Assembly (NCBI GenBank): GCA_017445905.1
Contig: JAFSRX010000009.1
Coordinates: 81,559 to 145,558, forward strand
Length of the DNA stretch: 64,000 bases
Source: Eubacterium sp.
GTDB lineage: Bacteria > Bacillota > Clostridia > Oscillospirales > Acutalibacteraceae
Reading direction: 5' to 3'
Part shown: positions 58,152-64,000 of the stretch, piece by piece
Layout of the letters: each line of letters begins with the position of its first letter
Position numbering within the stretch: position 1 is the first letter of the stretch
Notes under the pieces: model-generated
Told to the model about the DNA's origin: nothing
What the model saw: only the letters and a program-made list of their open reading frames with translations
Databases searched by the model: none
Made by a program: the position numbers and the translations under genes

Positions 58152-59093
58152 TTAGCCGTTAATCTGCTTTGCGATTTCTTCTGCAAAGTTTTCTTCTCTC
58201 TTTTCAAGACCTTCACCCTTCATCATTCTGATGAAGCCGTTAACCTTGATATCACAGCCAAGCTCTTTAGCTACTGAATCAACATAACCTTTAACTGAGC
58301 CCTGGAAAAGATCTGATCTAACGAATTCTTGCTCAACAAGGCAGTTCTCTTTGTAGTACTTGCCCATCTTACCTTCAGCAATCTTAACAAGAACCTGCTC
58401 AGGCTTTGAAGCCATCTTCGGGTCTTCTTTCATCTGAGCAGCAAGAATGCCTTTCTCGTGCTCAACAACATCTGCAGGAACAGATGCCTGATCAAGGTAT
58501 GCAGGACTCATAGCAGCAATCTGCATTGCAACGTTTTTACCCATAGCAACGAAAGCATCATCAGCAGCCTTTGCTTCATCTGAAACATCGAAGCCAACCA
58601 TAACGCCTACTGCGCCGCCTGCGTGAATATATGTTGAAACAACGCCTTCCATTCTCTCAAAGCGGCGAACTTTCATATTCTCACCGATTGAAAGAACAAG
58701 GTCGTTAAGTGTTTCTGTTACAGTTCTGTCTGTTCCGTTGAACTTCTCTTCTTTAAGAGTTTCAACATCTGCAGGATTTGTTGCAAGAATAGTTTTTGCA
58801 ACGCCCTCAACAAAGTTCATAAACTTCTCGTTCTTAGCAACGAAGTCTGTTTCTGAGTTAACCTCAACAACAACGCCCTGCTTTGCAGCTGCATCATAGT
58901 ATGGAAGAACAACGCCCTCAGCGGCAATTCTTGTTGCCTTTTTCTGAGCTGCTGCAAGACCTCTTTCACGAAGATAGTCTATTGCCTTATCCATATCACC
59001 GTCTGCTTCAACAAGAGCTTTTTTACACTCCATCATACCAACGCCGGTTTTCTCACGGAGTTCTTTAACATCTTTAGCTGAAATATTTGCCAT
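58152..59093 (-). CDS. tsf: Elongation factor Ts
   Basis: Nucleotide-exchange factor of EF-Tu. KDVKELREKTGVGMMECKKA (near 6) is the N-terminal signature, VEVNSETDFVAKNEKF (near 76) the core EF-Tu contact. 313 residues, a little longer than Bacillus (293), mainly near the C terminus. GGAGG lies eight bases before the ATG. Confidence 0.97.
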   Translation of the reverse strand: MANISAKDVKELREKTGVGMMECKKALVEADGDMDKAIDYLRERGLAAAQKKATRIAAEGVVLPYYDAAAKQGVVVEVNSETDFVAKNEKFMNFVEGVAKTILATNPADVETLKEEKFNGTDRTVTETLNDLVLSIGENMKVRRFERMEGVVSTYIHAGGAVGVMVGFDVSDEAKAADDAFVAMGKNVAMQIAAMSPAYLDQASVPADVVEHEKGILAAQMKEDPKMASKPEQVLVKIAEGKMGKYYKENCLVEQEFVRSDLFQGSVKGYVDSVAKELGCDIKVNGFIRMMKGEGLEKREENFAEEIAKQING

Positions 59094-59110
59094 TTTCTTT
59101 TCCTCCTATT

Positions 59111-59233
59111 ATTAGTGAGGAGTTAGGAGCGAGGAGTGAGGAGTTTAGGGACCTGCGGTCGGCAATATAAAATAATTGATCGAACGAAGTGAGAAACCGA
59201 AACTCCTAATTCCTAATTCCTAATTCCTAATTA
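59111..59233. repeat. Modular intergenic repeat, full inverted copy
   Basis: Arm TGAGGAGTTAGGAGCGAGG, inverted core (GGGACCTGCGGTCGGCAAT ... GATCGAACGAAGTGAGAAAC), arm of CTAATTC heptamers. It is the copy of 11953 with the core turned round, between rpsB and tsf. Confidence 0.75.
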
Positions 59234-59238
59234 AGCTA

Positions 59239-59259
59239 AGGGCGGAAAAAATCCGCCCT
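59239..59259 (-). terminator. GGGCGGA hairpin after rpsB
   Basis: AGGGCGGA/TCCGCCCT with a 5-base loop, ten bases after the rpsB stop, with no T run after it on the minus strand (the T run is in the loop). It may protect the rpsB mRNA end rather than terminate fully. Confidence 0.45.
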
Positions 59260-59269
59260 GATAATCAAA

Positions 59270-60043
59270 TTATTCTGCAACTTCTTCTGTTTCTTCTGCT
59301 GCTTCTTCAACTGCCTCTTCAGCCTTTTCTTCTTCATCTGCTGCAGCGATAGCATCCTCACCGTCTCTACCTTCGATAACAGCATTAGCCATTGCGCCTG
59401 CAATAAGCTTTACTGCACGAATAGCATCGTCGTTTCCGGGGATAACATAATCGATTTCATCAGGATCACAGTTTGTGTCAACAATAGCAACGATTGGAAG
59501 ACCGAGTTTCATTGCTTCTGCAACTGCAATTCTCTCTTTTCTCGGGTCAACAATGAACATTGCCTCGGGAACTTTTCTCATTTCGGTGATACCGCCGAGA
59601 TATTTTTCGAGCTTTTCGATTTCAAGTTCAAGACCTGCAACCTCTTTCTTCGGAAGAAGATCAAAGGTTCCGTCCTCCTGCATCTTCTTGAGCTGAGCAA
59701 GACGAGCAACTCTGCCTCTGATAGTTTTGAAGTTGGTGAGCATACCGCCAAGCCATCTTGCATTAACATAAGGCATTCCGCAGCGAAGAGCTTCTTCCTT
59801 AACGCTCTCCTGAGCCTGCTTCTTTGTTCCTACGAAGATAATTGAACCTCCGTCTGCTGCAAGGTCGCGAACAAACATATAAGCCTCATCGAGCTTCTTA
59901 ACTGTTTTCTGAAGGTCGATGATATAGATGCCGTTACGCTCTGTGAAGATGTATTCTGCCATTTTAGGGTTCCATCTTCTTGTCTGGTGTCCGAAATGAA
60001 CGCCTGCTTCTAAAAGCTGTTTCATTGAAACTACATTTGCCAT
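59270..60043 (-). CDS. rpsB: 30S ribosomal protein S2
   Basis: Structural small-subunit protein. [20 protein letters not shown] (near 7) and [20 protein letters not shown] (near 180) are signatures. 257 residues including an acidic Glu/Ala tail of about 30. AAGGAGG lies eight bases before the ATG. It heads the translation/lipid/isoprenoid cluster. Confidence 0.97.
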
Positions 60044-62757: not shown

Positions 62758-63072
62758 GTGCAGTATTATAACAAAGTCGAAATTTGCGGAATCAACACGA
62801 GTGAGATTAAAGTTCTCAGCGAGAAAGAAAAACTTGAACTATTAAGAAAAGCTCACGACGGTGATATGAAAGCAAGGGATGAGCTTATTCAAGGCAATCT
62901 GCGTCTTGTTCTCTCGGTTGTTCAGCGCTTTGCAAACAGGAATGAAAATATGGATGATTTATTTCAGGTCGGCGTTATCGGACTTATTAAAGCGATAGAT
63001 AATTTCAATCTCGATTTAGATGTTCGTTTCAGCACCTATGCTGTGCCTATGAGGTGTATCTTGGGGAAATGA
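62758..63072 (+). pseudogene. sigG: Sporulation sigma factor SigG, 5' fragment cut by an inserted element
   Basis: Late forespore sigma factor, of which only the first 98 of about 258 residues are present. NKVEICGINTSEIKVLS is specific to SigG (not SigF), followed by region 2: QGNLRLVLSVVQRFANRNEN, DDLFQVGVIGLIKAIDNF and RFSTYAVPM. Then the frame leaves the family (RCILGK, stop); the expected IIGEIRRFLRD, region 3 and region 4 are missing. The GTG start follows AAAGGA by eight bases. Downstream is mobile-element DNA, so the rest of sigG probably lies at the other end of that element. Confidence 0.9.
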
Positions 63073-63090
63073 AAAGAGAGGGATACACCA

Positions 63091-63648
63091 ATGACGAGAA
63101 ATACTGCAATAGCAACGGTTTTAGAATACTTTAGAGATGTTGACGATATTAATGCACCTATGCGTGAGGCATTAAGTGAATTACAAAAAGCATTTGATAA
63201 CTATAATAAGGTTTGGGACGCAGAAACAATAAAGGAAGCGGTTGATAAATTCGTTAAAGAGAAAGGTAGAAGACCATTGTCAAGAGAACTTGACAATAAC
63301 AAGGAACTACCATCTCATAATGCTATTTTGAGAGAATTCAAAATGACAGCGGCAGAATGGCTGGCTGAAAACTACCCCAACAATCTTAACCCTAATTGGA
63401 GAGAGTACTATAAACAGTTTTCTAATGAAGATTTAAGGAATATTTTTATTTCAGAACATAATAGGATTAATCCGAGAAGTGCAATTGAATACAACGCTAA
63501 AAGAGATAACAATACGCCCGCTTGGCAGTATATTGCTGCAAAAATGGGTACAAGCCGATGGATAGAATTGAAAGAAATCTGCGGCGTTGAATACATAAGA
63601 CCGATTAAAACCTATAAGGTCACATCAATAGTTCAAAATATAAATTAG
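63091..63648 (+). CDS. Element-borne protein with homing-endonuclease-associated-type repeat, unknown
   Basis: A 185-residue soluble protein. Residues about 45-92 (VDKFVKEKGRRPLSRELD, LPSHNAILREFKMTAAEWL) resemble the small helix-turn-helix repeat found with homing endonucleases, and a weaker second copy may lie at about 110-165. No nuclease motif is seen, so DNA binding is the only suggestion. AGAGG lies before the ATG. It is the first gene inside the element. Confidence 0.6.
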   Translation: MTRNTAIATVLEYFRDVDDINAPMREALSELQKAFDNYNKVWDAETIKEAVDKFVKEKGRRPLSRELDNNKELPSHNAILREFKMTAAEWLAENYPNNLNPNWREYYKQFSNEDLRNIFISEHNRINPRSAIEYNAKRDNNTPAWQYIAAKMGTSRWIELKEICGVEYIRPIKTYKVTSIVQNIN

Positions 63649-63654
63649 TTAATT

Positions 63655-63687
63655 AAACTACTCATTGAATAATGGGTAGTTTTTTTA
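63655..63687 (+). terminator. Terminator after the first element gene
   Basis: AAACTAC-CATT pairs with AATG-GTAGTTT (one T/G mismatch, 4-base loop) and runs into seven or more T. Confidence 0.85.
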
Positions 63688-63730
63688 TATTCAAAATCAA
63701 TTAAGAAATAATAAGAACAGGAGGCTAAAT

Positions 63731-64000
63731 ATGGCTAAATGCAAAACGATTGCTATATGCAATCAGAAAGGCGGTGTGGGAAAGACGACAACCGCCGTCA
63801 ATCTCGGCGTAGGTTTAGCAAGGCAAGGAAAAAAGGTACTCCTTGTGGATGCAGACCCACAGGGAGATTTAACAATCAGTCTTGGATGGCAGGACAACGA
63901 CAGTTTGGATATTACTCTTGCTGACAAAATCAATTCGGTTATTACCGACATTGACTTTGATAAAACAGCGGGTATTCTGCACCACACAGAAGGTGTTGAC
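63731..64000 (+). CDS. parA: ParA-family ATPase, N-terminal part
   Basis: Partition or transfer-linked ATPase of a mobile element, 90 codons before the right edge. [20 protein letters not shown] (near 10) is the deviant Walker A and [18 protein letters not shown] (near 39) the Walker A' motif. The text up to [10 protein letters not shown] matches, as I recall, ParA proteins of Firmicute conjugative elements. AGGAGG lies seven bases before the ATG. Confidence 0.93.

Follow-up and report, generated by a model that had tools for sequence, protein, structure and literature searches.

A site-specific element of likely phage origin splits the sigma factor gene sigG, which may be rejoined reversibly in the forespore

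The systems closest to the one described here are elements that interrupt genes of sporulation. In Clostridioides difficile, the directionality factor of the skin element, CD1234, is a protein of 53 amino acids (PMC10747680); it is made under sigma E and SpoIIID, which limits skin excision to the mother cell, as passages of PMC5025042 and PMC4191935 state. Other intervening elements named in passages of PMC4191935, PMC5595907 and PMC10747680 are SP-beta in spsM, vfbin in spoVFB, vrin in spoVR, gin in gerE and yin in yabG. Confinement of the rearrangement to the terminal mother cell is presented as the rule by which the known elements are retained (PMC4191935). Active lysogeny is the term for a prophage that works as a switch by interrupting a host gene in a reversible way (PMC10747680). 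Could a gene of the other compartment be interrupted in a similar manner? sigG is a forespore gene (PMC4191935, PMC5942855), and the rearrangement of an element inside it therefore cannot be confined to the mother cell if the gene is rejoined where it acts. The first-pass annotation of the DNA analysed here, which proposed that an integrative element interrupts sigG, knew of no well-described case for this gene; a full-text literature search, whose scope left out preprints and most subscription papers so that an earlier report is possible, likewise returned no report of an element in sigG.

The window, by which we mean the whole stretch of 64,000 nucleotides that was analysed (G000:C59:81559-145558), belongs to a genome of 75 contigs that is 97.4% complete, and its end coincides with the end of contig C59. 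Close to this end, an open reading frame of 104 amino acids with a GTG start (62758-63072) matches two equivalog models of SigG, NF006071 (E 4e-44) and TIGR02850 (E 1e-42), the match being limited to about the first 97 model positions. After FSTYAVPM the frame reads RCILGK and reaches its stop codon at 63070-63072. The first-pass annotation had described a good SigG frame up to FSTYAVPM with an early stop, a junction at about 63050 and parA among the element genes behind it. The model matches over some 97 codons confirm the broken frame, a ParA ATPase match begins at 63731, and the position given for the junction is accurate, the CC of the crossover core lying at 63046-63047. For the 185-residue product of the gene between junction and parA (63091-63648), Pfam and PHROG gave nothing at E <= 0.01 and NCBIfam nothing convincing, and an Rfam scan of the window yielded nothing at gathering score. 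The middle of the element is absent from C59 and from the contig with the other half of the gene, C63; parA and small ORFs are all that is visible of it there. The remainder of parA was not located, as no matching C-terminal part is found among the seven AAA_31 matches of the genome.

Where is the rest of the gene? A SigG model search of the whole genome gave nine sigma-like matches. Besides other sigma factors these are two pieces of sigG, the 5' part on C59 and a 3' part on C63; none of the nine is an intact sigG. The 3' part (G000:C63:130788-131276, minus strand) covers model positions 89-252 without a stop, reads ...PMCIGEVRRFLRD... and begins at the very codon of the cut (PMCIGEVRR). The two features that the first-pass annotation suggested looking for beyond the contig end, a 3' part of this kind and an integrase beside it, are thus both present on C63: a large serine recombinase is encoded directly upstream of the 3' part, on the same strand, its ORF ending about 64 bp before the crossover core. 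In the same-genus contig L045 (from G003), sigG, a HAD gene, tsf and rpsB adjoin one another; in G000 these neighbours are divided, with HAD on C63 and tsf and rpsB on C59. The stretches compared were L045:1-3473 and positions 58152-60043 of the window. When 13 further loci from genus mates were searched with UraA, Upp, HAD and its neighbour, and longer stretches of five were read, HAD/tsf/rpsB-type neighbours of sigG were not found; the sigG neighbourhood therefore varies in the genus.

The attachment sites can be read directly from the two contigs. In G000, attL on C59 consists of GCTGTGCC followed by TATGAGGTGTATCTTGGGGAAATG, and attR on C63 of TTTTTCCCCAAGGTACACCCTGTGCC followed by AATGTGCATCGG. 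The heptamer CTGTGCC is common to both, and because the base after its central CC differs between attL and attR, crossover should take place at or before the CC of the proline codon. The element sides, when joined, make a near-perfect palindrome, TTTCCCCAAGgTACACC ... GGTGTAtCTTGGGGAAA, with agreement at 16 of 17 inner-arm bases by hand count; a palindrome is the usual form of a serine-integrase attP. The host sides, when joined in silico at the shared core, give an in-frame SigG of 256 amino acids that is 81-84% identical to the SigG of ten intact genus mates. Of 138 alignment columns with no variation among the 13 other SigG sequences, this protein departs from 3; the same test gives 0-4 changes for each of the ten genus mates and for two outgroups, while a third outgroup has 19 of 156 (six outgroup loci were tried, of which three gave SigG). 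Since so few invariant columns are changed, as in the genus mates, the joined SigG shows no sign of decay. Judged from these sequences, sigG of G000 is split by a site-specific element whose attB is the Val-Pro-Met stretch of region 2, between FSTYAVPM and IIGEIRR.

Table 1. Features of the divided sigG locus and its element in G000. Plain coordinates are positions in the window.
Feature	Position	Strand	Basis
sigG 5' part, roughly the first 97 codons as far as the crossover core	62758..63047	+	SigG models; joining with the C63 3' part
attL: host half, core CTGTGCC (central CC 63046-63047), then element half TATGAGGTGTATCTTGGGGAAATG	63025..63071	+	
Element-encoded tail of the truncated sigG ORF, RCILGK end, TGA stop	63048..63072	+	
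First element gene, 185 aa, no assigned family	63091..63648	+	ORF; relatives in viral contigs L112, L113
parA of the element (ParA partition ATPase), truncated where the contig stops	63731..64000	+	Profile match
Large serine recombinase, 474 aa	L011:11329-12753 (C63)	-	Resolvase, Recombinase and Zn_ribbon_recom domains; PHROG 95 integrase
attR with TTTTTCCCCAAGGTACACCCTGTGCC	C63, L011 central CC 11265-11264	-	Counterpart of attL

Is the split restricted to a single genome? In G000's own genus it is, this genome being the only carrier among 60 members. In all, 97 relatives were searched with the SigG model; 82 of them match over nearly the whole model (hand count), and the other 15 comprise G060, cut at the same codon, and 14 genomes with partial matches at contig ends or none. 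Candidate splits in G003, G009, G017 and G030 were rejected, as their matches are truncated at contig ends and not at the VPM codons, and the model search found no sigG match in G071 and G084. In G060 the 3' half and the recombinase share a contig, where about 3 kb separates them, and in G172 a single contig carries the 5' half, 6.4 kb, a recombinase 51% identical to that of G000 and the 3' half.

We widened the search with the recombinases themselves. Three of them, used as queries in an order-wide survey of 394 genomes, gave strong matches in 35. Thirty of these loci were read, and in 21 of them a sigG half is no more than about 1 kb away from the recombinase, usually only tens of bases. When 391 genomes of the class were surveyed, 11 new loci appeared, of which two, in G537 and G897 and hence in other families, have a sigG half near the recombinase; a survey of the phylum (398 genomes) added one more distant recombinase, at a contig start in G910 and with no sigG. 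No sigG half is close by at the other 9 of 30 order-survey loci and 9 of 11 new class-survey loci. Six g130 genomes, G416, G093 and G910 have same-subfamily recombinases with no sigG half in the stretches examined, and none was seen around three distant relatives picked up by a contig scan with the G000 recombinase. In the six g130 genomes (family f17; L086, L098-L101, L104) the recombinase stands after a terminase-like gene and, in the five where it is listed, before a small conserved gene of ATPase-like type, a place that is perhaps a second integration target.

Altogether, sigG is cut at the same place in 42 genomes of seven families, that is, in 41 besides G000, and the junctions listed across genomes fall at the VPM codons. 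The count comprises G000, G060, 11 genomes of genus g81, 22 of genus g142, and G306, G495, G501, G375, G486, G537 and G897, these last seven being included on the evidence of a sigG half next to or not far from their recombinase, with both halves seen only in G495. In g81 the split affects 11 of 20 genomes, both halves being found in all 11; in g142 it affects 22 of 25, and the 5' half is listed for 11 of the 22. One g81 genome, G526 (82% complete), has two whole sigG copies (C48:34420-35178 and C167:2787-3542), perhaps because its bin is mixed. Species with a split sigG may be mistaken in gene surveys for species that lack the gene.

The halves are not arranged alike in the two genera. In eight g81 genomes they stand in direct orientation, 3.1 to 6.4 kb apart, so that excision would join them. 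In the other three (G409, G525, G533), which form one supported clade, they point apart at a distance of about 3.4 kb with the recombinase between them and the sites in inverted orientation; inversion restores the ORF in all three as computed, and in G409 an in silico inversion between the cores restores full SigG together with its usual neighbours. In g142 the recombinase goes with the 3' half in 22 of 22 loci, and in genomes of one or two contigs the halves are 112 kb apart on the same strand (G443) or 757 kb apart on opposite strands (G449), distances that a simple small-element model does not explain. The 5' half in G288, also of g142, follows SpoIIGA-like and sigE-like genes (by eye), the usual place of sigG. 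Both half-sites keep similar arms through g142. Joining in silico restores a full-length ORF in 23 of 25 genomes and in G000 as well, the ORF of the remaining one, G288, being cut by a contig end. The arms of attR and attL are more complementary within than between genomes (14.2 versus 12.5 of 24 in 25 genomes; 0 of 20,000 permutations), a figure that kinship of the genomes also raises.

Several observations bear on whether the divided gene is still in service. No stop was found in any half compared, which were the 3' halves of 22 g142 and 11 g81 genomes and the 5' halves of 11 genomes of each. Median dN/dS in g142 is 0.041 for the 3' half and 0.089 for the 5' half, with 69 3' pairs of dS > 2 excluded and the two intact g142 genes omitted; in split g81 it is 0.053 (3') and 0.038 (5'), and in intact g81 0.15 and 0.056. 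Distances between recombinases correlate with those between sigG genes (Mantel r 0.43 in g142, 0.91 in g81), and the two are therefore inherited together within each genus. With E <= 1e-60 as the limit, all 10 split genomes tested have the recombinase and none of the 11 tested with intact sigG has it (in G523, 74 of 84 candidates were scored); G517, which is without a SigG match, is without the recombinase at this threshold too. A tree of 24 sequences requires two state changes in all, and because split and intact genomes cluster on it, the split has few independent origins. Genes for SASPs, a class that includes the sigma-G-regulated sspC (PMC8270828), are present in all 14 split genomes tested, with partial matches only in G443 and in G000, where there are two, one of them at a contig start. 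They are missing from G084, the genome noted above as being without a sigG match. G071 (100% complete) has a SASP gene (locus L267) and sigF, and no sigG match whole or split; it may manage without sigG in some other manner, or have a sigG too diverged to see. Taken together, the preserved halves make it seem that the split sigG of g142 and g81 is in use.

If so, what would rejoin it? Just upstream of the recombinase, 24 of 37 loci have an ORF of 41-65 codons with the motif [RK]Y[IVL]N. Its carriers are all 11 split g81 genomes, the 10 g142 genomes looked at, G000, G060 and G486; at the other 13 of the 37 loci no such ORF was accepted. A match at phage locus L111 was dropped as a dUTPase-like fragment, and phage locus L109, which matches the pattern, is excluded from the count. 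By its position, and by a size resembling that of known factors, the small ORF is a candidate directionality factor. Upstream of it in G000, on C63 and inside the element, lies a match to pemK RNA (Rfam RF02913, 40.4 bits; L011:13167-13219, minus strand).

We searched the 60 nt before this ORF for a strict sigma-F-type -10 box, GGnnAnAHTR, a consensus for the sigma-F -10 that is expected 0.03 times per search window. It occurs at 17 of the 24 loci, with an imperfect -35: in all eight g81 genomes with direct halves, always at -27, and in 9 of 10 of g142, at -31 to -35. The genomes with no such box ahead of the candidate factor are G000, G060 and G486, one of g142 and the three of g81 with inverted halves. 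For comparison, among 210 other ORFs at loci from these genera the box precedes 4, and one of these four is sigG itself. Before sigG, the strict box is found in 23 of 37 sequences, namely all 20 of g81, G060, G486 and G495, in none of 13 g142 sequences and not in viral contig L110; upstream of sigG in g142, GTATA and GGGGAAAATC form a near match to the sigma-F box (by eye). A sigma-F-type promoter before sigG is known in B. subtilis (PMC5942855), and in C. difficile a G upstream of the -10 marks sigma-F promoters (PMC3789822); the predicted promoter before sigG agrees with both.

The element probably came from a phage. Two viral contigs, L112 (114 kb) and L113 (115 kb), carry a related recombinase, a palindromic attP and then an ORF related to 63091-63648, with identities to the protein in the window of 25% and 35%, respectively. 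A scan of viral contigs with that protein found no relative; relatives were seen only beside the recombinases of L112 and L113. The attP cores of the two contigs resemble that of the sigG element (TTCATCGGGATGAA, which is TTCATCCCGATGAA on the other strand, and AGTCATTCCGATGACT). An unintegrated attP between integrase and end gene thus appears in L112 and L113 and would hold for G000 by homology, and the gene order of the G000 element is that expected for the integrated form of such a phage. Of 79 viral loci tested, L110 and L115-L117, all four on IMG/VR contigs, include half of sigG next to the recombinase; three of the four have nearly the same junction sequence. Surveys report sigG homologues in phages (PMC10294663), and some of those may be host halves.

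Two of the smaller elements were read gene by gene, and phage structural genes were seen in neither. That of G172 (L074:883-5453) encodes an Fe-alcohol dehydrogenase, a ferredoxin-like protein, an aldehyde ferredoxin oxidoreductase and ThiS/ThiF proteins, metabolic genes parked within a sporulation gene. That of G495 (6.7 kb; L236:7129-11892) has, by eye, a pair resembling BlaI/BlaR1, a glycosyltransferase-like protein, and possible spore-surface proteins whose sequences contain repeated or threonine-rich tracts. Integration of a phage at sigG followed by domestication would be the simplest history.

How, then, might a cell with a divided sigG complete a spore? The best explanation, to which we assign a probability of roughly 0.7, is that a phage-derived element splits sigG and that a recombinase triggered by sigma F rejoins it reversibly, the latter part being drawn from the related genera. 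By extension from these, vegetative cells would hold sigG split. Once sigma F is active in the forespore, it would drive synthesis of the small directionality factor encoded just upstream of the recombinase; recombinase and factor together would join attL and attR and restore sigG in frame, and transcription of the restored gene would bring about late forespore gene expression. After germination the recombinase alone would re-integrate the element and reset the split state. Because the forespore chromosome is inherited, rejoining should be reversible or lossless, and the genomes with inverted halves, joinable only by inversion, fit this; such lossless layouts may have arisen since a forespore gene cannot rely on confinement to the mother cell. 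For g142 and g81 the evidence, read from genomes, favours regulated rejoining of sigG. A wider proposal stands at even odds in our view: that sigG is controlled, each time a cell sporulates, by a forespore-specific, sigma-F-triggered, reversible rearrangement of the germ line, which may be an excision, an inversion of 3-4 kb or the joining of sites more than 100 kb apart, and which is reset after germination. On this view the arrangement is of long standing in two genera or more and goes back to phages with an attachment site in sigG.

For G000 itself a simpler account is quite plausible. Its element looks like a rather recent, phage-like arrival, and since it is recent-looking and confined to one of 60 genus members, programmed rejoining is less certain there than the insertion. 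The element might be a plain temperate prophage or integrative element that uses sigG as its attB, the lysogen being asporogenous or sporulation being left to cured cells, with no developmental regulation. The matching attP beside a related recombinase in L112 and L113, the solitary occurrence of the split in the genus of G000 and the missing sigma-F-like box before its candidate factor all suit this account. As a general explanation it is nevertheless unlikely, for the split persists through two genera with halves that are intact and strongly selected, recombinase and split are strictly associated, SASP genes are kept, the small elements of G172 and G495 are devoid of phage structural genes, and sigma-F-like boxes occur in two genera.

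Need the DNA be rearranged at all? The B. subtilis pair SigO/RsoA is a known two-subunit sigma factor, and the halves of SigG could likewise be translated separately and work as two subunits, to which the far-apart halves of g142 on the same or opposite strands of one- or two-contig genomes and the in-frame ATG that starts the 3' half would be suited. Yet the cut falls inside the conserved region 2, no stretch resembling a ribosome-binding site precedes the 3' ATG in the listed junctions (by eye), and the tail of the 5' half varies as protein and contains stops while its DNA arms stay similar. The matching of arm complementarity within genomes and the recombinase adjoining the 3' half in every one of the 22 g142 loci also speak for sites that recombine, and we regard two separate subunits as highly improbable. 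That assembly or binning has made chimeric contig ends of a gene that is whole in the cell is very unlikely and receives next to no weight from us: C59 and C63 do both end soon after the junctions, C63 in a TCAG tandem repeat, but the junctions are internal to the contigs, with about 0.95 kb of element assembled on C59 and 3.8 kb on C63, the joined halves give the 256-residue SigG and the foreign ends one attP palindrome around the core, the same type of junction recurs in independent assemblies that include one- or two-contig genomes, and both halves share a contig with the recombinase in G172, G329, G256, G203, G520, G524, G529, G530 and G495, so that neither of the refuting findings named in the first-pass annotation, a chimera near 63050 or an intact sigG elsewhere, is borne out by the contigs.

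The preferred reading, a sigG split by a phage-derived element and rejoined under sigma F, would matter beyond this locus. A split sigG breaks the rule of mother-cell confinement, for its rearrangement has to take place in the very cell that passes on its DNA. If this is right, bacterial development includes programmed, reversible recombination of the germ line, and the element offers a clean test bed for serine recombinases run forwards and backwards within one life cycle. Listeria comK is an example of active lysogeny; unlike there, reversibility of the sigG element is deduced from inheritance of the forespore chromosome. The elements in spsM, spoVFB, spoVR, gerE and yabG resemble that of sigG in being phage-derived or of other kinds and, as the sources cited above describe them, several have a serine recombinase with a known or putative directionality factor; their targets are given there as mother-cell or sigma-K-controlled genes, whereas the attB of the sigG element is formed by the VPM codons of SigG. 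A close parallel is the sigK skin of B. subtilis and C. difficile, which also lies inside the gene for a late sporulation sigma factor, also has a serine recombinase and on excision leaves the gene joined in frame, as is proposed here for sigG. Some sigG splits, unlike skin, require inversion and not excision, and the halves in g142 are far apart. Above all, sigK is a gene of the mother cell, whose rearranged genome dies, whereas sigG acts in the forespore, whose genome is passed on.
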